42,585 nt of DNA from Oscillospiraceae bacterium (GTDB taxonomy: Bacteria > Bacillota > Clostridia > Oscillospirales > Oscillospiraceae). Position 1 is the first letter of the stretch; each line of letters opens with the position of its first letter. The notes beneath the pieces were generated by a model. The model was not told where the DNA came from, did not search any database, and was given only the letters and a program-made list of their open reading frames with translations. Positions 31,173 through 42,470 of this stretch are shown here, in pieces. The position numbers were made by a program, and so were the translations under genes. The DNA is taken from NCBI GenBank assembly GCA_021203045.1, contig JAJQBY010000118.1, positions 1-42,585 of the forward strand, read 5' to 3'.

Positions 31173-31216
31173 GTCCGCGGTAGCTGATAAAAACAGCTGC
31201 CGCGGACTTTTTTACC
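31173..31216 (+). terminator. Terminator after GH79
   Basis: Arms at 31173-31185 and 31194-31207 (GTCCGCGG...AGCTG with CAGCT...CCGCGGAC) form a strong stem followed by TTTTTT. Confidence 0.9.
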
Positions 31217-31306: not shown

Positions 31307-32764
31307 ATGAAAAAGCAGATCAGCATCCTTCTTATAACGGCGCTGCTGCTGATCGCGGCGGGCTGCCAGGCCACGCCGGAGACCAGCGCTGTTACCAGCA
31401 AGAACGACGGGGCCCTGGAGGCCGCCATCGAAGCATCCGCCGCGCCGGAGACTGAGACGGCGGAATCGGAAGATCAGGAGGAAACGCCGGTATCCTATAC
31501 AGACAGCTTTACCAACTCGGACGGGACGATCACCTATACCATCGACCTACAGGATATCTCGCTCTCATCGGCAGCCGCTCCGGTCATTCAGGTGACGCCC
31601 CACACCATCACGGCGGAGGAAGCGGAGCAGACGGCGGAGCTCCTTTTCGGAGATGCGGAGCTATACGAATACTCCGCCGAGCGGAGCAAGACCGAGCTGG
31701 AGGAGGTCATTCTGGAGCTGAAGCAGTTTATCAGCGACTGGGACACGCTGGTGGAGTACTACGGCGGGGACGAAGCCACCGCCGCCATGGTCCAGGCGGA
31801 TTACGAGGAACGCATCGCCAGATATGAGGAGCAGTACGCCTCCGCCTCGGACACTGTGGAAAAGCAGCCGTGCCAATGGACCTTTTACCCCAAATCCCAT
31901 TATGTAGACGCCGGCTGGAGCCTGACAGACGCCGACGGCGAGGACACGTCAGAGCAGATTCTTGCCACAGTGGAGACCGGCGATCTCGCCTATATCTACT
32001 CTGTGACGAACCGCGACGCGGACGACTACCGCATCCACAGCATTTACGCCTATGTGAACGATCTGCTGGTATCCACCACGGAAAAATACAGCGCCCAGAA
32101 GCTGACCGACGAGGATGTGACCGACGCGCTGGAAGCGGCGGAAAACATCCTGGCCCAGCTCCCCTTCGGGGATTACATTGTGGACAGCTACATAGCGAGC
32201 GAGTTCACGGACCCCGACACAGGTCTTACCATGAACACCATCAGCGTCACCGCCTGCCCGGTGTATGAGGGCGTCCAGGTGACGCGCCAGACCCAGCTGG
32301 CAAGCATAAAATCCGACGACGCCTACGCCTCCAACTATTATTATGAGGATATTCAGATGCAGTTCAGCGGCGGTCGGCTGATCTACTTTGAATATTATTC
32401 CCCCATGGATGTTGTGAGCGTGGTGAATGAGAACGTGGAAACCCTGTCCTTTGAGGAGGCTGTGGCTGCCCTGACCGCCCAGCTGAAGCTGAATATTCTG
32501 ACGGAGGAGGACATCGGAGAGCTCCCCGCCAGCGCGGAATATACCATCAGCGAGGTGGAGCTCGGCCTGGTGCGGACGCGGATAAAAAACAACGAGACGG
32601 ACTTCTATCTTCTGCCCGCCTATACCTTCCGGGGAACCTATACCCTGTATGACGCGGACGGAAGCGTCATCATGAGCAGCGAGGATTTCAGCGGAGGCGC
32701 GGAGACTATTCTGGTCGTCAACGCCGTAGACGGCAGCATCATCGACACCACGCTGGGATACTGA
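31307..32764 (+). CDS. Lipoprotein, copy 1 (DUF6034-like)
   Basis: A 485-residue lipoprotein. The lipobox IAAGC places the lipid-bearing cysteine at residue 20. A short acidic Ser/Thr/Glu-rich spacer (to about 65) leads to a large extracellular domain with repeated alpha/beta elements and no cysteine-rich or catalytic motif. The end reads AVDGSIIDTTLGY. From memory it resembles a family of Firmicute lipoproteins of unknown function (DUF6034). GGGAG precedes the ATG. It precedes an ABC cluster and is paralogous to the next gene. A substrate-binding or sensor role for that transporter is inferred. Confidence 0.8.
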   Translation: MKKQISILLITALLLIAAGCQATPETSAVTSKNDGALEAAIEASAAPETETAESEDQEETPVSYTDSFTNSDGTITYTIDLQDISLSSAAAPVIQVTPHTITAEEAEQTAELLFGDAELYEYSAERSKTELEEVILELKQFISDWDTLVEYYGGDEATAAMVQADYEERIARYEEQYASASDTVEKQPCQWTFYPKSHYVDAGWSLTDADGEDTSEQILATVETGDLAYIYSVTNRDADDYRIHSIYAYVNDLLVSTTEKYSAQKLTDEDVTDALEAAENILAQLPFGDYIVDSYIASEFTDPDTGLTMNTISVTACPVYEGVQVTRQTQLASIKSDDAYASNYYYEDIQMQFSGGRLIYFEYYSPMDVVSVVNENVETLSFEEAVAALTAQLKLNILTEEDIGELPASAEYTISEVELGLVRTRIKNNETDFYLLPAYTFRGTYTLYDADGSVIMSSEDFSGGAETILVVNAVDGSIIDTTLGY

Positions 32765-33054
32765 ACATTCTTGCAAGGATCCTATCTATGCGCTTTCTTG
32801 TCCGGAGCTTCCATATGGTGACAATAAGGACGCTTATAATTGTCCGATGAGTCAATTTATTAATGTTTAAATCGAATATTTTTTATGATTATTCATTTTA
32901 TAAAAAGTCCCATTTCTGCCGATTTCTGGGTCAAATATGCAGAAATGATGCAGGACGGATTTATAATGCCAGACAATAGAATTCTTATTCCATACAGCAA
33001 TTGTTGTCCTAACCGTTCCCAACAAATAAAATCAACCATCTGGAGGTACCGTTT
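32765..33054. other. AT-rich gap between the two lipoprotein genes
   Basis: These 290 bases hold no convincing gene, hairpin terminator or clean promoter. The sequence is clearly richer in A and T than what lies on either side. A TTATAAT at about 32834-32840 lacks a well-placed -35 box. The ribosome binding site GGAGGT for the next gene is at 33042-33047. Confidence 0.5.
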
Positions 33055-34479
33055 ATGGAAAAGAGATTTATTGCACTGGTCTTGCCAGGCACCTTGTTAG
33101 CAATGGCCACAGGTTGCCAAACCACGCCGGAGACCAGCGCGGTAACTAGCAAAAATAATGGTGCTCTTGAAAGTGCAATATATAGCGAAAGCAATACAGG
33201 TAACCAAGATGAAAAATCGGAGGATTTACAGGATTATACACTTTCCAGCGCAGATGGCACAGTGCGCTATACAATTTCACTTGACGATAATACGTCCTCA
33301 GATGCGCCTATGCCGGTTATACGAGTAACGCCTCATAGCATAACATCCGAGGAAGCGCGGACGGTTGCACAGCTGTTTTTTGGAAGCGAAGATGTTTATA
33401 CCTATTCCGAGCAAATGAGTAAGTACGAGATCGAGGAAAAAATTTTATCACTGAAGCAGGCCATCAACGACAGAAGCACGCTGGTTTCTAAATACGGCGA
33501 CGATGATGAATTAATTGACGCCGTCATTGCACAGTATAATTCCATGATTTCATATTATGAGCTTCAATACGAGTCAGCGCCGGAAACCGTGGAGAAAACA
33601 TTATGCGATTGGACATTTCACCCTTTGTCCTACTATATGGATGAGGCTGGACTGGATACAAGCACAGAGGATTATATCGGCTACAATCAAACAGTGTATA
33701 TACGAGCCCTGTCTCAAATAGATAATATTCAATATCAATTCTGGGCCTGTAATCGGGACGAAGCGGATTATCGGGTTCATTATTTAAATGTTTTCATGGA
33801 TTATACAGGCGCAGATCGTGATTTGTACAGCACCGTCAAGCCAACAGACGAACAAATTGTACAGGTTTGCGAAAAAGCAGAAACAATCTTATCGCAACTG
33901 AATATGGGCCAATGGGAAATTGCTTCGTGCGAAGTAATGGAAAGTATGAATAGTGACGGAGAAACCGTATATCACATTTATATCATTGCCATGCCTGTTT
34001 ATGAAGGGATCACGATGACTTACTTGGGTACTCTGATTGACCAGGACACATCGGATGCTTACATCTCCAACTATGACTATGAGGGAATCACATTTGATTA
34101 TAGCGGCAGCAGCTTAATCTCCTTCCGATATGAAGGCATGCTGGACGTGGTGGAGGTTTTAAATGACGATACATCCGTGTTGTCCCTCACGGAGGCGGCA
34201 GAGCTATTTGAAGCCTATGCCTCCTATCTAAAGGCCGATACATATTCTTCAAGCGCCGCCAGTCTGGACGTAGATGTAAACCATGTGGAATTGGGGCTGG
34301 TAAGAATCCGCATACAAAACAATGAAACCGATTTTTATCTGGTGCCTACCTATACCTTTTATGGAACCACTATCTCTTATAACGAGGACGGCGATATATT
34401 GGCGGAAACAGAGGATGTCCAGCTCGCCGTCATCAACGCCGTAGACGGCAGCATCATCGACACCACGCTGGGGTACTGA
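33055..34479 (+). CDS. Lipoprotein, copy 2 (DUF6034-like), composition mosaic
   Basis: A 474-residue paralogue of the preceding lipoprotein. Lipobox ATGC puts the lipidated cysteine at residue 21. The same architecture follows, with shared ETSAVTSKN after the lipobox, VTPH-I-T-EEA near 95, YASN/YISN-Y and NNETDFYL near the end, and the identical C-terminus AVDGSIIDTTLGY. The two genes share exactly identical DNA at both ends (19 bases at the 5' side, 40 at the 3' side), while the middle of this copy is much more AT-rich than its neighbours. This implies recombination with foreign DNA. GGAGGT precedes the ATG. The next gene starts 22 bases downstream. Confidence 0.85.
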   Translation: MEKRFIALVLPGTLLAMATGCQTTPETSAVTSKNNGALESAIYSESNTGNQDEKSEDLQDYTLSSADGTVRYTISLDDNTSSDAPMPVIRVTPHSITSEEARTVAQLFFGSEDVYTYSEQMSKYEIEEKILSLKQAINDRSTLVSKYGDDDELIDAVIAQYNSMISYYELQYESAPETVEKTLCDWTFHPLSYYMDEAGLDTSTEDYIGYNQTVYIRALSQIDNIQYQFWACNRDEADYRVHYLNVFMDYTGADRDLYSTVKPTDEQIVQVCEKAETILSQLNMGQWEIASCEVMESMNSDGETVYHIYIIAMPVYEGITMTYLGTLIDQDTSDAYISNYDYEGITFDYSGSSLISFRYEGMLDVVEVLNDDTSVLSLTEAAELFEAYASYLKADTYSSSAASLDVDVNHVELGLVRIRIQNNETDFYLVPTYTFYGTTISYNEDGDILAETEDVQLAVINAVDGSIIDTTLGY

Positions 34480-34501
34480 CCGGCAAGAGGAGGGATACAA
34501 G

Positions 34502-35266
34502 GTGAAAAACACAGTGCTTTCCTGCATACGCCAGGCCGTATGCTCCCGGCGGTTTCTGCTGGGAGCGGCGGCTGTGGCGGCGCTTGTGTTTTTCGCCTCC
34601 CTGGAAACGCTGCTGACTGACCTCCGCTCGGAGGAGCTGCTGGCCTATGGCGCTCATGGGAGCATGGTGGTCGGAGCGCTGGGGTCGGATACGCTCATCA
34701 TCGCCCTGCCCATCGTGTGCGTGCTGCCCTATGCCTGCTCCTATGTGGAGGACATAAAGACCGGGTATGTGCGGCAGTACCTGAGCCGCACGTCCCGGCG
34801 GGCCTATCTTACGGGAAAGGCGGCGGGGTGCATCCTCAGCGGCGGCTTGGTGCTGGTGGCGGGGATATGGACAGCCTACGGGCTGTCCGCCCTGGCGCTT
34901 CTGCCCATGGAGGCGGCCCCGGAGGAGGGAGCCGCTGCGCCGGGCTATTTTATGCAGCTCGCGGGGATAAGCGGACGCTTTTTCCTGTCCGGCGGGCTGT
35001 GGGCCATGGTGGGCATGGCCCTCTCCGCCGGGATGGAGAGCCGGTATGTGGCCTATGCCGCACCGTTTATTTTATATTATGTACTTATTATATTGTATGA
35101 ACGATATTTCGACTGGCTTTATGTGCTGTATCCCAAGGGCTGGCTGGCCCCTGGGGAGGAGTGGGTCACCGGCCCGTGGGGCGCGGCTCTGGTGATGGCG
35201 GAGCTCACGGCGACGGCGGCCCTGTGCTTTGCCGCAGCGGCGGAAAGGAGGCTTTCTGACCTATGA
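34502..35266 (+). CDS. ABC-2-type membrane permease, first of a pair
   Basis: A 254-residue membrane protein with about six helices, from a GTG start supported by AGGAGGG just upstream. Helices are seen around residues 20-36, 60-80, 105-130, 155-175, 180-200 and 225-245. Between helices 2 and 3 lies YVEDIKTGYVRQYLSRTSRR, recalling the cytoplasmic coupling loop of ABC-2 permeases such as antibiotic-immunity (LanE/G, BcrB) types. It overlaps the next gene by 4 bases. A partner in export or membrane extraction with the ATPase below is inferred. No single family identified with confidence. Confidence 0.75.
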   Translation: MKNTVLSCIRQAVCSRRFLLGAAAVAALVFFASLETLLTDLRSEELLAYGAHGSMVVGALGSDTLIIALPIVCVLPYACSYVEDIKTGYVRQYLSRTSRRAYLTGKAAGCILSGGLVLVAGIWTAYGLSALALLPMEAAPEEGAAAPGYFMQLAGISGRFFLSGGLWAMVGMALSAGMESRYVAYAAPFILYYVLIILYERYFDWLYVLYPKGWLAPGEEWVTGPWGAALVMAELTATAALCFAAAAERRLSDL

Positions 35267-36159
35267 ACGGGATACGGCAGATTTGGGCCGTGGCGGCCTA
35301 TAACTTCCGGCAGTGGCGGAAAAATCCCCGCTTTTTCATCACCTTCGCCCTGGCGTTCATCCTGTGCTTTCTGCTGTCGGACAAGGCCGTCCGCTTCGCG
35401 GTGGAGCATGGGACGACCATGCAGCTTGCGGAGGCGTTCATCTGGACGTTCGGGGACAGCGACTCTATTCTTCTGGTGTCTCTGCTGCTGATCCTGCTGT
35501 TTACAGATATGCCCTTCCTATCCCCCGGCACGCCCTTTTTCCTCATGCGTATTGACCGGCGGAAATGGGTGGCGGGACAGCTTGTGTATACCATATCGGC
35601 CACCGGGCTGTTTCTCCTGTTCGTGCTGGGGTCTACCATATTGGTGTGCATCCGGCAGTCCTATGTGGGAAACGTATGGAGCGAGACGGCGGCCATTCTG
35701 GGCTATTCCAGGGCGGGAGAGGCTATCGCTCTGCCGTCGCTGGTAAAGACGCTGGAGATGTCCTTTCCCTATCGGTGTATGGTCACCATTTTCGGGCTTA
35801 TGCTGTGCTATACCCTGGTGATGGTGCTGGTGATGCTGTTTTTTAACCTTCGCTGCGGCCACGGAGCGGGGATCGTCAGCGGCTTCGCCTTCACGGTATA
35901 CGGCTTTCTGCTCAAGCCCGACACCATCGACGCGGTGTTTCAGCTCCCCGCGGCGCTGTATTACAAGGCAAACGTGGCGGTAGGATGGCTCTCGCCCTTG
36001 AATCACGCCACCTATCATATGCACAATTTCGGCTACGACCTGCTGCCCCGGATGTGGCAGTCCTTCGCCGTATTCGGCGGGCTGATCGTTCTGGGGGCGC
36101 TGGCCTCCCTGTGGGCGGTGAGAAAATATAATTTTGTCTTTACAGGAACGGAGGGATGA
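35263..36159 (+). CDS. ABC-2-type membrane permease, second of a pair
   Basis: A 298-residue protein with a cytoplasmic N-terminus (MNGIRQIWAVAAYNFRQWRK) and about six helices, the last near 270-288 followed by a basic tail. Like its neighbour it has no periplasmic domain of note. Both permease genes overlap their neighbours by ATGA, pointing to a fixed stoichiometry: two permeases and the ATPase encoded next. It is longer than the first permease and only distantly similar to it. Confidence 0.75.
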   Translation: MNGIRQIWAVAAYNFRQWRKNPRFFITFALAFILCFLLSDKAVRFAVEHGTTMQLAEAFIWTFGDSDSILLVSLLLILLFTDMPFLSPGTPFFLMRIDRRKWVAGQLVYTISATGLFLLFVLGSTILVCIRQSYVGNVWSETAAILGYSRAGEAIALPSLVKTLEMSFPYRCMVTIFGLMLCYTLVMVLVMLFFNLRCGHGAGIVSGFAFTVYGFLLKPDTIDAVFQLPAALYYKANVAVGWLSPLNHATYHMHNFGYDLLPRMWQSFAVFGGLIVLGALASLWAVRKYNFVFTGTEG

Positions 36160-36812
36160 GCGTGGAAAGCGGCAATGCGGCGGTCAGCGTGCAGAACGTG
36201 TCCAAGAGCTTTGGAGACGCCAGGGTGCTGACGGAAGTATCCCATGATTTCCGGGCGGGGCAGATACACGGCATCGTGGGCAACAACGGCAGCGGCAAGA
36301 CCGTGCTGATGAAGTGCATCTGCGGGTTCCTGCCGCCGGGAGAGGGATGCATCCTGGTGCGGGGCCGTCAGGTGGGCCGGGATATGGATTTCCCGCCGGA
36401 CACCGGGGTCATTATCGAGACGCCGGGGTTTCTACCCAATCTCTCCGGGATAAAAAATCTGGAGCTGCTGGCCTCCCTTCAGCGGCGCGTAGGCCGGGAG
36501 GGCATCCGCCAGGCCATCGAGCGGGTGGGACTTGACCCGGATATGAAAAAGCCCGTGGGAAAGTATTCCCTGGGTATGCGCCAGCGGCTGGGTATCGCCC
36601 AGGCCATCATGGAAAATCCATCCCTGCTGATACTGGACGAGCCATTCAACGGCCTGGACAAGCACGGCGCGGCCCACATGCGGACGCTTATCAAGGAGCT
36701 GCGCGTCCAGGGCAAGACCATTCTGCTGGCAAGTCATAACCAGGTGGACATCGACGAGCTGTGCGACACCGTCTGCGAGATGGACGCGGGCGTGTTGACT
36801 GTGGTGAAGTGA
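36156..36812 (+). CDS. ABC transporter ATP-binding protein (functional type)
   Basis: A 218-residue ATPase. All motors are intact: Walker A GNNGSGKT (42-49), signature SLGMRQR (138-144), Walker B LLILDEP with E162, and H194 in ASHNQ. Length is that of a bare nucleotide-binding domain, close to the bacitracin/lantibiotic-immunity (BcrA-like) group. ATG overlaps the previous stop; its own stop overlaps the next start (TGATG). It should power the two permeases at 34502-36159. Confidence 0.93.
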   Translation: MSVESGNAAVSVQNVSKSFGDARVLTEVSHDFRAGQIHGIVGNNGSGKTVLMKCICGFLPPGEGCILVRGRQVGRDMDFPPDTGVIIETPGFLPNLSGIKNLELLASLQRRVGREGIRQAIERVGLDPDMKKPVGKYSLGMRQRLGIAQAIMENPSLLILDEPFNGLDKHGAAHMRTLIKELRVQGKTILLASHNQVDIDELCDTVCEMDAGVLTVVK

Positions 36813-37468
36813 TGGAATACGCAGTGATACTGGAAAACGTGGTAACACCGGGACGGGACGGACGCGGCCAGCTCCGGGGAGCCAGCCTCTCCATCCCGCA
36901 GGGCCGGCGGGTGCAGATCTCCGGCGGGCAGGACGGGAGCGGCCAGACGCTTCTGGAGCTTATAGGCGGCCTTCAGCGTCCCGCGTCAGGCCGGGTGCTG
37001 GTGCTGGGACAGGATATGAACGACCTGAACGAACGGCAGACCGCTGCCTTTCGGGGCGGACATATAGGCTTCGTGTCCGGGCGGCCCGCCTTCTGGCCGG
37101 GAATGACCATGGCGGAGAACGTGGCCCTGCCCCTGCGGCTCCGGGGCCGGACGGAAGATGTGGGCGCGGCCCAGACATTGGAATCTGTAGGGATGGGGCA
37201 TATCGCCTGGGCCTATCCCAAAAGCCTGTCGCAGACGGAAATGCGGTGCGCAGCTCTGGCGAGGGCCATGATCGCCGGGCCGGAGCTGCTGATACTGGAC
37301 AGGGTTGCATCCGGCCTGAATCGCCGGGAGGCGGAACGATTCCGGGAGGCACTCCGGGCCGTGCTGACGGATAAAATAACGCCGCTGTCCCTGGATGAGG
37401 ACGGCCCGGATGAGACAGATACCGACATGGCCTGCGCGCTCAGATACGGGAGGATAGAAAGATTATGA
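36812..37468 (+). CDS. Degenerate ABC ATPase-like protein (LolD/MacB-type), likely inactive
   Basis: A 218-residue protein that keeps the overall ABC fold but has lost the chemistry. The P-loop reads GGQDGSGQT, with the essential lysine replaced by Q45. The signature LSGGQ is LSQTE (139-143). Walker B ends ILDR, with the catalytic glutamate replaced by R164, and no switch histidine follows. Q-loop region and family-specific segments (FWPGMTMAENVALPL) still resemble LolD/FtsE-type ATPases. Length is full and the frame clean, so it is a conserved protein rather than a fresh pseudogene. It may be a structural partner for the MacB-like protein at 39051. Confidence 0.85.
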   Translation: MEYAVILENVVTPGRDGRGQLRGASLSIPQGRRVQISGGQDGSGQTLLELIGGLQRPASGRVLVLGQDMNDLNERQTAAFRGGHIGFVSGRPAFWPGMTMAENVALPLRLRGRTEDVGAAQTLESVGMGHIAWAYPKSLSQTEMRCAALARAMIAGPELLILDRVASGLNRREAERFREALRAVLTDKITPLSLDEDGPDETDTDMACALRYGRIERL

Positions 37469-39054
37469 AACGGAAGAAAAATATACTCACGGCTATATTG
37501 CTCCTGCTGATTGCAGCGGCCCTGCTCCCCTTCGCCGTCCTGGCAGATGAGACGGAAGCTGATACGACAGAACCTACAGCGACAGCAGAGCCAACAGCGA
37601 CAGTCGAACCAACTGCCACACCGGAGCCGACTGCCACAACAGCCCCAACGGAGACGCCGGAAGCAACTGCCACGGCGACTCCTACAGAAGTCCCGGAGTC
37701 CACAGCAGTCGTCACCTCCGGCGTCGTTACCCTGTCCATCGACGATGAAAACATCTACGAGGGCATGGACAAAGCCTATAAAGACGGCTATGTCCCCCAG
37801 GTGGCCGACGGCATGGTGACAGTGGTGCTGCCGCTCATCGCCAGCGGAGCGCTGCAAAGCGACCAGCTCACCGTCACCCCCTCTCTGGGGGACACGAGCA
37901 GCACTCCTATCGTGTATAAAAACTACCAGAAAACCTTCTATCTGGCAGACAATCCTGTGAACCCGGACAGCGATGGAAATGCCACGGGAACAGTCTCCTC
38001 CTATCTGGTCAGCTTCCAGATGGAGCTGGACGAGGACAGGCAGAATGGGACATATCCCGTCACCCTGGACGTATCCGCTCAGACGGAGGACGGAACCGAG
38101 GTGACAGCCAGCTTCACCTGCTATATCACTATCACAGACGGAACCTCCGACAATGACAGCTCGGATACGGCGGTGTCCTACAGTAGCGGCACCAGCAGCA
38201 CCGTGGAATTTCAGCCAAAGGTGCTGATAAGCCGGTACAGCACCGACCCGGCCACCGTTCCGGCAGGCGAGGAATTTACCGTCACCGTGACCCTGCGCAA
38301 CACCAGCGATACCCAGGACGTGCAGAACATGGTGGTGTCCGTATCCTGTAGCAGCGATAATTTCCTTCTGAAAAACGACAGCAGCGATATTTACATAGAC
38401 GAGCTGAAGGCCGGCGAGACCATAGATGTCCCCATCACCTATGCCACCGATCTGGAGACTGCCGCCCAGCGGTATGCCATCACTCTCTCCATGCAGTATG
38501 ACAACAGCAGCGGCTCTACTCTGTCCTCCACCGGCACGGTGACGGTCACAGTGGTGCAGGTGCCGGAGGTGGAGCTGTCCCCCTTCACGCTGGATGAGTC
38601 GCTGAACGCCGGGGATACGGTGCAGCTTGCCTTCCAGGTGATGAATCTGGGGCGCTGCCCGGTGTATAACGTCCGCCTGGAGCTGGACGTGCCGGGCCTG
38701 TCCGCCGTGGGGACGGCCTTTATCGGCATCATGGAGGCGGGCACATCGGCAGATACCTCTGTGAATGTGTTTGTGGGAATGAAGGATATTGAGGAGGGCC
38801 AGGACGCCTCAGAACGGTACGGAGACACCAGCGGCGTGGTGCGCCTGATCTATGAGGACGCCGCCGGGGAGGAATATACCCAGGAGATCGAGGTGTCCAC
38901 CAGCATCCAGGCCCTGACTATTACTGCCGCAGATACGGCAGACGAGGAGGAAGACGAGGCCCGTGCCGTCCAGTGGTGGGTGTTTGTCCTGGCGGGAGCC
39001 GCCGTCATTGCGGTGCTGGCTGTTCTGCTGGTCAGGCGGCGGATACGCCGATGA
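37465..39054 (+). CDS. Membrane-anchored surface protein with Thr/Pro stalk
   Basis: A 529-residue exported protein with a signal peptide (cut likely after AVLA, residue 27), then a Thr/Pro/Glu stalk (about 30-80, units like EPTATA). Beta-rich domains follow: an N-terminal one with VTPSLGDTS, then repeats like those in CARDB/COG1361 S-layer-type proteins (GEEFTVTVTLRNTSDTQDVQ and GDTVQLAFQVMNLGRCPVYN). A final helix (about 500-522) is followed by VRRRIRR. The whole body is therefore outside, anchored at the C-terminus. It starts by ATGA overlap with the inactive ATPase gene and ends overlapping the MacB-like gene. Confidence 0.88.
   Translation: MKRKKNILTAILLLLIAAALLPFAVLADETEADTTEPTATAEPTATVEPTATPEPTATTAPTETPEATATATPTEVPESTAVVTSGVVTLSIDDENIYEGMDKAYKDGYVPQVADGMVTVVLPLIASGALQSDQLTVTPSLGDTSSTPIVYKNYQKTFYLADNPVNPDSDGNATGTVSSYLVSFQMELDEDRQNGTYPVTLDVSAQTEDGTEVTASFTCYITITDGTSDNDSSDTAVSYSSGTSSTVEFQPKVLISRYSTDPATVPAGEEFTVTVTLRNTSDTQDVQNMVVSVSCSSDNFLLKNDSSDIYIDELKAGETIDVPITYATDLETAAQRYAITLSMQYDNSSGSTLSSTGTVTVTVVQVPEVELSPFTLDESLNAGDTVQLAFQVMNLGRCPVYNVRLELDVPGLSAVGTAFIGIMEAGTSADTSVNVFVGMKDIEEGQDASERYGDTSGVVRLIYEDAAGEEYTQEIEVSTSIQALTITAADTADEEEDEARAVQWWVFVLAGAAVIAVLAVLLVRRRIRR
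37561..37695 (+). repeat. Imperfect tandem repeat encoding the Thr/Pro/Glu stalk
   Basis: Short units encoding E-P-T-A-T-x recur about seven times with drifting codons. Length variation between strains would be expected here. Confidence 0.7.
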
Positions 39055-40022
39055 GAGGACGGGTATTGCTGCGGTGCGCCTTCCAGAGCCTTCGGCCCGG
39101 TCTGACAGCAGCGCGGCTGGGGCTGACCGCCCTGGGGATGCTGTGTCTGATGCTCGCCGCATCCCTGGGAATAGGGATAATGCAGGCAAAGCGTCAGCCC
39201 TGTGAGCTGACCGTGACAGCCTCTCAGTATCAGACCATCACAGAGCAGACGGTGCAGGACATTCTAACGCTGGAGGATGTGACGGCAGCCACCGGCGTGT
39301 TGGAGCTTTCCGCGACCGTCACCACCGGCAGCTATTCCGCCAGCCTCACCGTTCTGGGCATAGACCGGGATTATCTGGCCCTGGATTTTCAAACAGGGGA
39401 GCTGTTTCCGGCAAGCAGTGACATGCCCCGCCTCATTCTGAGCCAGAGCGCGGCAAAGGAATTCCTAGACCCGGACGACCCGCCCACCGGCGGCAAAACC
39501 TATGAGCCGGACATAGACTGGCTGGATGCAGATTTCACCCTCCGGACCGGGGACAGCACCGTTCCCGCCGCTGTCAGCGGCATATACACGGACGAGGACG
39601 CAGGAGCCGCCTATATGGATCTGTCTCTGGCGAAGGAGCTGGCAGGGACTGCAACGTATTCTTACGCCCTGGTGCGCATCACCGATACCGGCACGGTGGA
39701 GACCATCTCCGCCGCCATCGCCGCCCTGGGCTATGCGGTCACGGATGAGACTGCCGCGCTGGGGGAGGAATGGGCAGGCAATGCCGAACGGGCCGCCTAT
39801 CGGACTGCACTGGCCCTGGCGCTGCTTCTGTCTGCCGCGCTGATAAAACGCATAGACACGCTGCAAAGCCAACTGGAAGATACCGGCCTGCGCCGGGATA
39901 TGCTCTGGATGGGCGCGGAGGAAGCAGCTCTCCGGCAGGCGGCGCGGCGCCGGGAGTCGCTTCTGGCCCTCGCCGCCGCAAGTTTGGCGGCGGCTGTGTT
40001 TCTGATTGCAAACAGCATATAA
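39051..40022 (+). CDS. MacB/FtsX-like membrane protein, short C-terminus
   Basis: A 323-residue protein. It has an N-terminal helix (about 21-44), an extracellular region of about 190 residues with MacB periplasmic-core character (VTASQYQTITEQTVQDILTL, LTVLGIDRDYLAL), and only two further weak helices (about 243-262 and 297-320). A standard FtsX/MacB permease has four helices, so one is missing or the C-terminal part is reduced. The start at 39051 is fixed by the ATGA overlap. It would be the natural partner of the LolD-like ATPase at 36812, which is inactive. It is last in the operon. Confidence 0.75.
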   Translation: MRGRVLLRCAFQSLRPGLTAARLGLTALGMLCLMLAASLGIGIMQAKRQPCELTVTASQYQTITEQTVQDILTLEDVTAATGVLELSATVTTGSYSASLTVLGIDRDYLALDFQTGELFPASSDMPRLILSQSAAKEFLDPDDPPTGGKTYEPDIDWLDADFTLRTGDSTVPAAVSGIYTDEDAGAAYMDLSLAKELAGTATYSYALVRITDTGTVETISAAIAALGYAVTDETAALGEEWAGNAERAAYRTALALALLLSAALIKRIDTLQSQLEDTGLRRDMLWMGAEEAALRQAARRRESLLALAAASLAAAVFLIANSI

Positions 40023-40084: not shown

Positions 40085-41434
40085 TTATCCCTTCCGCTGT
40101 TTTCGATAGACGACAACCGTGACGACGGTCTCTGCCACATAGGCCGCGACAAACAGGATATTCAGCCAGAAGATAACAAAGTCCGCGTGGGCCAGGGCCT
40201 CATCATCGTATGTAACGATGGGCAAATAACCGCTGGACTCGCCGCCATAGCGGATACAGCTGACGGATCGGTTTCTCCACACCCACTTGCACAGCAGATT
40301 TCCTTCCCCGTCCACCAGGGCGTCCCCGTAGGTCACATTGCTCAGAGAGTTTACATAACTTTCGCTCACAGGGCTTCCATTTTCATCGAAATACAGCGAC
40401 TCCCAATCCTCCGTAAACGCCTGATAAATCAGCACAGCTTCTTCCTCCGGCTCAGAGACCACCGCAACGGCTTCGGTACCGTAATAATCGGTATCTCTCG
40501 AAACCACCTCCTCGATGTAGGCCACGAAGCTGTTATAATCCTCAAACAGCGTTCCGCTGGTGAAAACCGTTGCATCCACCGCGTTGACCCCAATTTGGGC
40601 CGCAAGGGTGATAACCAACGCCACGCACAGCCTGACGCCGTATTTTCGCTGAAGCCGGTGCTTTTTCCAATAGCAGGCCTCCGCCGCTTCATCCATCCGC
40701 AGGACGCCTTTTTTCACCAGGGAGGCGTTGACGGCCCAGCATATTACGACATAAACGACGGTCAAGACAGCCGCCGCCAGCAGGCCATAGGCAAGCCAGC
40801 TGGCAGCGCTCAGCCCCAGATAGGCGGCCACAAACAGAAGCGGCAGCGCCACGCCCAGCAAAAACACGTCAAGGCCGAAGGAATACTCCCCCAGGCGCAC
40901 CACGCTTCTTTTATAATTGTATAAATCCTTGCCCTCGTCTATCCCGGCCACGGCGGCAAAGGCGTTGTTGATGAAAATGAGCTGGCAGACGACCCCGGCA
41001 ATCAGAAATATCATGGCCACGGAAAACCCGATGATGGCATAGAGAAAGCCCAGGTTCAATATCATGGCGGCGGCCAGGCCCGCCAGGGATACGCCCATGG
41101 CAATATAGGTGTGGTTTTTGTACCTGGTGAGGCCGGCGGCCAGCAATCGCTGCCGCTGCTTCTGCCCTCTGGCGGTGGCGCTCTCCCCCTCGGCCTCGGC
41201 TTCGTCGGCCCGCTCCTCCGGAGCCCTGCGCTCGCCGCGGAGAAGCTCGTCGCAGGTCACGCCGAAAATCTCCGCAATCACGGGTATCAGGGAGAGGTCA
41301 GGCGCGCCCTCATCCCGCTCCCAGCGGCTGACGGTTTTATCGGATACGTTCAGCCTGTCGGCCAAATCCTTTTGGGTCATGCCGTTGGCCTTTCGCAGCG
41401 CGGCGATGAAGGCTCCTATGGATTTCTGTCCCAT
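40085..41434 (-). CDS. XRE-family regulator fused to a membrane domain
   Basis: A 449-residue protein. The N-terminal helix-turn-helix (about 1-65: MTQKDLADRLNVSDKTVSRW) is followed by a charged linker to about 100 and then seven or so membrane helices. An extracellular region (about 300-410) ahead of the last helix is rich in Asp, Glu and Tyr. This layout suggests a membrane-bound sensor-repressor. The ATG at 41434 is chosen because AGGAGG lies just before it; the frame extends further upstream without a good site. It follows the CPBP gene by 87 bases. Orthologues are commonly annotated only as helix-turn-helix proteins. Confidence 0.85.
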   Translation of the reverse strand: MGQKSIGAFIAALRKANGMTQKDLADRLNVSDKTVSRWERDEGAPDLSLIPVIAEIFGVTCDELLRGERRAPEERADEAEAEGESATARGQKQRQRLLAAGLTRYKNHTYIAMGVSLAGLAAAMILNLGFLYAIIGFSVAMIFLIAGVVCQLIFINNAFAAVAGIDEGKDLYNYKRSVVRLGEYSFGLDVFLLGVALPLLFVAAYLGLSAASWLAYGLLAAAVLTVVYVVICWAVNASLVKKGVLRMDEAAEACYWKKHRLQRKYGVRLCVALVITLAAQIGVNAVDATVFTSGTLFEDYNSFVAYIEEVVSRDTDYYGTEAVAVVSEPEEEAVLIYQAFTEDWESLYFDENGSPVSESYVNSLSNVTYGDALVDGEGNLLCKWVWRNRSVSCIRYGGESSGYLPIVTYDDEALAHADFVIFWLNILFVAAYVAETVVTVVVYRKQRKG

Positions 41435-41521
41435 CGTGCATACCTCCTCAGGCATTTTGTTGTCCTTACGCCTGAAATTCTAACAATATGTCAGCGAGAA
41501 TACCACCCAACAGACCGGGAA

Positions 41522-42346
41522 TCACTCTCGGATTTCGAGAATTTGAGCCTCCCGGCCCGTGATCTGGTCCATTTTCTTCCGCCGGAGGAGGAACACAGCC
41601 AGGCCCACATACAGCGCCACGCTCAGCAGCCGCTCCGGGCCATAGGAGGATATGACCTCCACCTCGGAGGCGACGCCCCATACGCCGGTGCTCATCAGCG
41701 CGACAAAATCGTTCACCGCATGCAGGCAAATCAGCGCCCACAGATTGCCGCACCGGACATATATGGCCCCGAAATATATCCCCACGCCCACCGCCGCCGC
41801 AGCCTGCAGGATACCCGCCGCCGGGGTAAGCCCTGCGGTGAGAATGTTGGAAAGATGGGCCAGACCAAAGATCGCTCCGGAGACGATGACGGTCAGCCAC
41901 ACGCCCTTAGCCCTGTCCCGGCCGAAGCAGTCCGCCAGCACGTTCAGGATAAGCCCCCGGAACAGCAGCTCCTCCGCCAGCCCAACGGCAAACATATCGA
42001 AGGTATAGCCCAGTATCACCGCCGCCGGCTGTATCGAGCCCTGGGAGAGCCCCTCTATCAGGCCGCCGATCAGCAGCAGCGCGATCAGAACGACCAGAAA
42101 TCCCCCCGCCCGGATACCGGCCAGCAGTCCCCGGCCACGGTCCGTCAGGATATGAAACTTTTTCAGCCGCCACAGCGCCAGAAGCGTCAGCGCCGCCAGG
42201 AGCATATCGATGAGCCCCTCTACCCAGTACAGGTTTCCATTGGGGAGCAGCAGGGCAAAGCCTACGCCCAGCAGCCAGCCCAGAATCACGAAGGCGACCG
42301 CCGCACCGACGCAAAACAAACAGGACAAAAATTTTTTCTCTTTCAT
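41522..42346 (-). CDS. CPBP-family intramembrane metalloprotease
   Basis: A 274-residue, eight-helix Abi/CPBP (type II CAAX-protease-like) protein. The motif AEELLFRG (EExxxR, first zinc-binding glutamates) sits near residue 130. The second and third motifs FGLAHL and CLHAVND carry the histidines. The ATG at 42346 follows GGGAG after a leader containing a 7-bp hairpin. Members are linked to bacteriocin self-immunity, quorum peptides or membrane-anchor proteolysis. The neighbouring regulator suggests a shared signal. It heads the two-gene unit with the XRE protein. Confidence 0.9.
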   Translation of the reverse strand: MKEKKFLSCLFCVGAAVAFVILGWLLGVGFALLLPNGNLYWVEGLIDMLLAALTLLALWRLKKFHILTDRGRGLLAGIRAGGFLVVLIALLLIGGLIEGLSQGSIQPAAVILGYTFDMFAVGLAEELLFRGLILNVLADCFGRDRAKGVWLTVIVSGAIFGLAHLSNILTAGLTPAAGILQAAAAVGVGIYFGAIYVRCGNLWALICLHAVNDFVALMSTGVWGVASEVEVISSYGPERLLSVALYVGLAVFLLRRKKMDQITGREAQILEIRE

Positions 42347-42395
42347 GTGCTTTCTCCCTGTGTCTCTTTGATGAGGAGCCATCGGCTCCTTCGTT

Positions 42396-42424
42396 ATTTT
42401 ACAGGCGCGCCTCCCGCCTGTCAA
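42396..42424 (-). promoter_or_regulatory. Promoter of the CPBP-XRE unit
   Basis: On the minus strand perfect TTGACA (42424-42419), 17 bases, TAAAAT (42401-42396). Its leader contains the hairpin AGGAGCC/GGCTCCT (42374-42390). Confidence 0.8.
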
Positions 42425-42470
42425 GTGATACCGGCCGCGCGGCCGCTCCGTCCGGAGCGCCATATAAGCA

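Follow-up and report, generated by a model that had tools for sequence, protein, structure and literature searches.

The ytr operon of Bacillus subtilis (ytrGABCDEF) combines two units of ATP-binding cassette (ABC) transporters, one of the ABC-2 kind and one of type VII, according to the excerpts of PMC11466899 and PMC12772383. The make-up of Ytr is given as YtrB2CD plus YtrE2F2, and lipid II-cycle inhibitors induce the operon (excerpts of PMC11466899, PMC12772383 and PMC8060467). YtrB and YtrE are used as markers of cell-wall-synthesis inhibition, while what the system does, and with what stoichiometry, is still debated (PMC12772383, in part). Here, we describe an eight-gene block at positions 31307–40022 of a window of 42,585 nt, the whole stretch of DNA analysed, which is contig 8 of the 144-contig, 2.59-Mb draft genome of an Oscillospiraceae bacterium. 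As judged from the encoded proteins, its merger of two transporter halves is the known YtrBCDEF layout, with DUF6034 lipoproteins and a CARDB surface protein as additions.

The window and YtrBCDEF share an ABC-2 ATPase, two unlike permeases, a LolD-type ATPase homologous to YtrE and a MacB/FtsX permease in one operon. The window differs in its gene order and in the added lipoproteins and CARDB protein. Its second ATPase is degenerate and by its motifs would lack the catalytic competence of YtrE, and its MacB-like protein is one helix short of a four-helix YtrF-like permease. The sequence-only reading had taken the block for immunity-type (BcrA/LanFEG) and MacB/LolD-type exporters merged in one unit. 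The joining of an ABC-2/BcrA-LanF-like half to a LolD/MacB-like half stands, but the merger is not a one-off, and neither LanFEG membership nor the look of a working MacB exporter was borne out.

All eight open reading frames (ORFs) lie on the plus strand at that span. From permease 1 to the MacB-like gene they form a single tightly packed run, with four ATGA overlaps (permease 1/permease 2, permease 2/ATPase 1, ATPase 2/CARDB and CARDB/MacB) and one TGATG (ATPase 1/ATPase 2), and lipoprotein B stops 22 nt ahead of permease 1. The TGATG and the last ATGA come from moving the start of ATPase 2 to ATG 36812 and that of the MacB-like protein to ATG 39051, most likely the better placements.

ATPase 2 (36812–37468, 218 aa) is a predicted LolD/YtrE-type pseudo-ATPase. 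Its best PDB sequence match is YtrE (9o9x_A, E 2e-22) with LolD and YbbA close behind, so this match by itself does not point to Ytr in particular. In a comparison with four degenerate relatives and with intact ones, the Walker A lysine, the signature and the Walker B catalytic glutamate are replaced, and the H-loop histidine was not found in its sequence. Of the nine loci having ATPase 2, five (the window, both loci of the genome G216, L006 and G058) have lost Walker A and carry an altered Walker B; the other four, in distant relatives (G662, G683, G587 and G876), keep the motifs intact. In G683 and G876 the best BLAST query for the second ATPase was ATPase 1, and it is named ATPase 2 by position, LolD-like sequence and likeness to that of G587.

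In a tree of permease 2 plus ATPase 1, from which the incomplete L006 is omitted, the degenerate loci (n = 4) group as a single clade with 100% support and the intact loci with 99%, while the loci with CARDB but without ATPase 2 are placed at low support. None of the five degenerate ATPase 2 genes seen has lost its open reading frame. Between the two G216 copies, a simple counting method puts the ratio of nonsynonymous to synonymous substitution rates (dN/dS) at 0.22 in ATPase 2, 0.15 in MacB and 0.12 in CARDB; in the core genes it is 0.11 (ATPase 1), 0.18 (permease 1) and 0.07 (permease 2), with dS of 0.5–1.4. The degenerate ATPase 2, MacB and CARDB genes look constrained rather than free to drift.

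The short MacB/FtsX-like protein (39051–40022, 323 aa from the corrected start) consists of a first transmembrane helix (TM1), an extracellular MacB-type domain, TM2 and TM3. By hydropathy and alignment it stops after TM3, whereas TM4 is reached in G662, G587 and G876. These counts come from a crude hydropathy scan, which gives only two peaks in the second G216 locus (G216b), three in L006 despite its longer tail, four in G055 with one of them in the ectodomain and five in G587 with two adjoining. The predicted model is weak (57.5), yet LolE, MacB and YknZ head both fold-match lists. In the family, 3 of 250 genomes match this protein.

The CARDB protein (37465–39054, 529 aa; PF07705 E 4.9e-07) has a signal peptide, a Thr/Pro-rich stretch, a conserved N-terminal domain, two CARDB stretches and a C-terminal membrane anchor (hydrophobic helix at about 505–523), and is 46–52% identical in four relatives. 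Its profile matches 85 of the 250 family genomes, at most of the listed places only over the signal peptide and the Thr/Pro-rich start, and only places covering the profile body were used. In the own genome the matches outside the window lie within query residues 5–136, and the one such place examined (L077) has no such operon. Two partial matches (26% and 21% identity) were met in phages, in unannotated faecal records. A literature search found no paper combining CARDB domain, FtsX, ABC transporter and operon.

The same three gene kinds also stand alone in the family, as LolD-CARDB-MacB units in kept order (L080, L081, L083 and L086). These differ from the second half of the block in that the ATPase motifs are intact, the MacB protein is longer with a C-terminal helix, the CARDB protein, also longer, is matched from residue 251 onward only, and no adjoining DUF6034 core was seen. 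Their four-helix MacB relatives match YtrF at 6.4e-38. MacAB, YknWXYZ and other type VII exporters differ further: no HlyD/MacA-type adaptor is among the Pfam matches of the eight proteins, and in the window the ATPase is degenerate, the TM helices number three and the CARDB gene separates the ATPase gene from the MacB-like one. Here the second half does not have the look of a functioning MacB exporter.

The block is one conserved unit. We counted 17 orthologous loci, taking G055, on two contigs but probably one operon, once; L006 is visible from ATPase 1 onward only, and the more distant class and phylum cores in G347, G713, G743 and G1076 stand outside this comparison. CARDB is present in 12 of them. 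The order lipoprotein-permease 1-permease 2-ATPase 1-ATPase 2-CARDB-MacB is complete in the window, at both G216 loci and in G662, G587 (with the lipoprotein fused to BlaR1) and G876. Outside the window this makes five loci in four genomes, two of the loci in one genome of the same genus and three in other families of the class, so the homologues do not lie scattered. The cut contigs of G058, G683 and L006 are consistent with the complete order, and in G683 a lipoprotein-like ORF of 219 aa lies between the DUF6034 end and permease 1. Given the same order in relatives and the low dN/dS of CARDB, MacB and ATPase 2 between two of them, the block is more than chance.

Eight of the 17 loci are without ATPase 2. 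Among them, G055 has CARDB and a short MacB, G425 has CARDB and, set between its lipoprotein and its permease 1, two-component genes, G714 adds only CARDB to the core, and G241 (lipoprotein convergent with the rest), G217, G240, G859 and G663 are core only. A 248-aa ORF 3′ of CARDB in G425 is a doubtful MacB remnant (hhalign E 0.0016, probability 15.8%). Since core-only operons exist, ATPase 1 does not need ATPase 2, and the notion of ATPase 2 as its obligate partner was rejected on the eight loci.

The ABC-2 core comprises permease 1 (34502–35266, 254 aa, GTG start), permease 2 (35263–36159, 298 aa) and ATPase 1 (36156–36812, 218 aa). Both permeases have five hydropathy peaks and are predicted to have about 5–6 TM helices. 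Permease 1 is assigned by a sub-threshold match to PF12679 (ABC2_membrane_2, E 0.039) and its conserved position in relatives; permease 2 matches nothing in Pfam or NCBIfam and no PDB sequence. ATPase 1 is the intact motor that had been read from the sequence, of BcrA/DrrA/LanF type (PF00005 E 1.6e-28), with Walker A GNNGSGKT and Walker B LLILDEP. All ten matches to PADLOC anti-phage models were to ATPase 1 and of the generic ATPase kind, short of membership in a component model.

With 46–78% identity in five relatives, permease 2 is the best marker of the system and was used to search for it. It matched 15 of 250 family genomes at E up to 1e-3 (7 of these below 1e-29, own included), 11 of 391 class genomes at 1e-20 (8 of these below 1e-42, own included) and 2 of 249 phylum genomes at 1e-5, one being the own genome; no match was found in plasmids. 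The system is therefore rare and patchy.

The two lipoproteins ahead of the core, noted earlier as paralogous, are both DUF6034 proteins and 45% identical. Lipoprotein A (31307–32764, 485 aa, GC 58%) scores 151.8 bits (E 3.9e-44) and lipoprotein B (33055–34479, 474 aa, GC 44%, 48% at third codon positions) 116.4 bits (E 2.1e-33), both far above the curated PF19499 cut-off of 27 bits. In lipoprotein A, a conserved TPE..VxxK segment comes after lipobox Cys20, and a NAVDG segment is conserved towards the C terminus. The two genes share an exact run of 40 nt near the 3′ end and 19 identical nt near the start and lipobox; these identical runs, despite the AT-richness of B, suggest recombination or gene conversion between the tandem copies.

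Between the window and G216, the lipoproteins are 32–40% identical and permease 2 and ATPase 1 78–82%. The GC content is 44% in lipoprotein B, 40% and 52% in the lipoproteins of the two G216 loci (G216a and G216b) and 56–65% in the other genes of these operons. Tandem lipoproteins recur as three in G662, two fused in G587, two at a second site in the own genome (G000:C5) and two in G231 (99.6% identical). The lipoprotein is the fastest-diverging part and often tandem, as would be expected of a ligand-facing part. The second site of the own genome (L040:4722-9702) is a distant core with permeases and an ATPase behind two lipoproteins 76% identical to each other, and it has two-component-like genes downstream on the opposite strand.

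In G587, a BlaR1-type protein has DUF6034 fused behind its M56 part, where a sensor domain would otherwise be, and adjoins a BlaI-like gene. The fusion occurs twice (L118:9954-12614 and L118:13115-15766), each with a BlaI-like neighbour and ahead of the same operon. The window differs from such BlaR1/BlaI pairs, since its DUF6034 is a free lipoprotein with no adjoining M56 or BlaI partner. Two-component systems stand beside DUF6034 in six other relatives, and of the 13 loci with the lipoprotein side visible, 9 have signalling genes no more than about 1.5 kb away from the lipoprotein. Elsewhere, a Peptidase_M23 domain is fused to a BlaR1-type M56 protein whose gene adjoins BlaI and a related ABC-2 core (L088:2009-3442).

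Within the taxonomic order, the DUF6034 protein was matched in 2 of 295 genomes (own genome and G425), and in none of 14 control genomes. Its predicted structure is weak (mean predicted local distance difference test score 48), so the fold matches are a hint only. Full-text literature searches for DUF6034 and DUF2712 gave no paper, and none was found combining BlaR1, M56, ABC transporter, bacitracin and lipoprotein.

From the observed gene content, order, motif loss, signs of constraint and recurrence, our preferred reading is a Ytr-like system for sensing of and protection from envelope antimicrobials, in which ATPase 1 is the motor and the second one, now retired, is retained as a scaffold. 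We give it a probability of about one half; more broadly, the role in envelope or antimicrobial-peptide defence put forward at first is plausible. We infer the ligand, the direction of action or transport, the assembly of the complex, the loss of hydrolysis and the scaffold role as follows. The DUF6034 lipoproteins on the outward side of the membrane would bind or sense a cell-wall-active molecule, which might be an inhibitor of the lipid II cycle or an antimicrobial peptide such as a bacteriocin. In response, the two ABC-2 permeases, working as a heterodimer with ATPase 1 as their sole power source, would remove the molecule or alter the envelope. The CARDB protein would be a membrane-anchored surface stalk, and the former type VII unit of ATPase 2 and the MacB-like protein, no longer hydrolysing ATP, may persist as its scaffold.

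According to the excerpted text of PMC8060467, ytr overexpression thickens the wall and affects competence, and these effects persisted without YtrB or YtrE, which fits a role independent of the second ATPase. A bolder version is tentative and possible at best: a complete type VII (MacB/FtsEX-like) unit would have turned, under selection, into a non-hydrolysing pseudo-transporter that holds a CARDB stalk for a partner ABC-2 motor, and DUF6034 would be a ligand-sensing domain for cell-wall-active molecules common to the transporter lipoprotein and BlaR1-type receptors.

Several points weigh against the Ytr-like protection system. The available part of PMC12772383 reports no consistent resistance phenotype for B. 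subtilis ytr mutants, so a Ytr-like layout is no proof of protection. The permeases are likened to YtrC and YtrD by layout, not by sequence, the MacB-like profile's best PDB match, YtrF, is weak (E 0.27), and no match to the GntR repressor YtrA was found among the block proteins or the scanned neighbours. The window copy is without adjacent signalling genes, and several absences in the locus comparison rest on draft genomes.

The same holds for the retired motor as scaffold. Its degradation is uneven, as G216b keeps the Walker B glutamate and a near-signature LSLGE. The low dN/dS values come from one pair, and between the window and G216b the ratios are higher, at 0.52 for ATPase 2, 0.39 for MacB and 0.33 for CARDB (ATPase 1 has 0.15 and permease 2 has 0.18), at dS of 0.9–1.5, near saturation.

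The best surviving alternative is an orphan self-immunity unit, in which LanI-like lipoproteins intercept and a LanFEG-like ABC-2 transporter expels a specific secreted bacteriocin, whose gene the window copy has lost. LanFEG/BcrAB systems with LanI have one ATPase, two different ABC-2 permeases and a fast-evolving lipoprotein in front, and DUF6034 is much larger than LanI. The window shares the layout of ATPase, two permeases and leading lipoprotein, its lipoproteins evolve fast, and of the four lipoproteins from the window and G216, two have a markedly low GC content. TIGR03740 is the nearest NCBIfam model to ATPase 1, but at 169.8 bits it falls 140 bits short of the cut-off of 309.75, and the CARDB/MacB half is extra. 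By these scores, the window system is not a LanFEG member.

The candidate peptides cut both ways. Both G216 loci encode small secreted proteins with a PG_binding_1 domain close to the lipoprotein. Of the 15 more distant cores examined, some on cut contigs, 7 have a gene for a small secreted protein next to the lipoprotein, and AgrB genes lie near L033 and L090, with a LytTR regulator near L033. The ORF lists of 11 of 13 DUF6034-type loci, on the other hand, revealed no such small gene next to the lipoprotein, and the antimicrobial activity of the secreted proteins is putative. As the sequence-only reading held, the window itself has none: no small secreted or modification gene was recognised between 31137 and 40085 (ORF lists, by eye), no lantibiotic genes were seen, and the gaps have only short frames with no evident signal peptide (by eye). 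Because DUF6034 is elsewhere fused to a BlaR1-type sensor, sensing is likely as well as immunity. The bacteriocin account is doubtful on this balance.

The small secreted proteins beside lipoprotein/ABC-2 cores (about 140–166 aa) lie at L041:5801-6229, L041:15981-16481, L079:7854-8285, L089:10544-10984, L090:9593-10030, L092:5680-6129 and L093:4128-4592. A few have a GxWxP-like tail and one a sub-threshold DUF2712 match, and it is possible that they are bacteriocins. The PG_binding_1 proteins near the two G216 operons are at L033:13050-13520 and L034:17177-17683, with upstream stretches alike by eye and holding a palindrome. Searched against the genome that holds the window, these gave five matches (best E 3.9e-11), which we read as generic PG-binding domains or signal peptides.

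A further alternative is a machine of envelope homeostasis or signalling rather than defence, in which DUF6034 would act on a histidine kinase or BlaR1-type sensor in the way that YycH/YycI control WalK, and flux or a mechanical state would be conveyed by the transporter; we consider it unlikely. That ATPase 2, CARDB and MacB are a drifting relic around a working lipoprotein-ABC-2 core is less probable still, since the lost motifs and TM4, the relatives without ATPase 2 or MacB and the dN/dS of 0.33–0.52 against the window are set against five degenerate ATPase 2 genes still open and ratios of 0.22, 0.15 and 0.12 between the G216 copies.

A terminator-like hairpin (31173–31207, plus strand, a 14-pair stem then TTTTTT; a consensus match only) sets the block apart from the upstream gene. 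Within it, a gap of 290 nt at 35.5% GC (32765–33054) lies ahead of lipoprotein B and holds one promoter-like site (33004–33032), while such sites in the region are not above the shuffled expectation (6 vs 5.6). As this AT-rich gap leaves lipoprotein A loosely joined, a single transcript across all eight genes is no more than possible. Immediately downstream is a convergent HTH_3 regulator gene with a hydrophobic C-terminal part (40085–41455, minus strand), and close by a CPBP/Rce1-like intramembrane protease gene (41522–42463, minus strand). Protease genes of this kind are sometimes bacteriocin-associated.

In summary, the fusion of DUF6034 to BlaR1-type sensors offers a lead to the function of this uncharacterised family. 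The related operons form a series, from both motors intact through ATPase 2 degenerate to ATPase 2 absent and MacB absent with CARDB kept. This series makes it testable which parts of the double system serve what.

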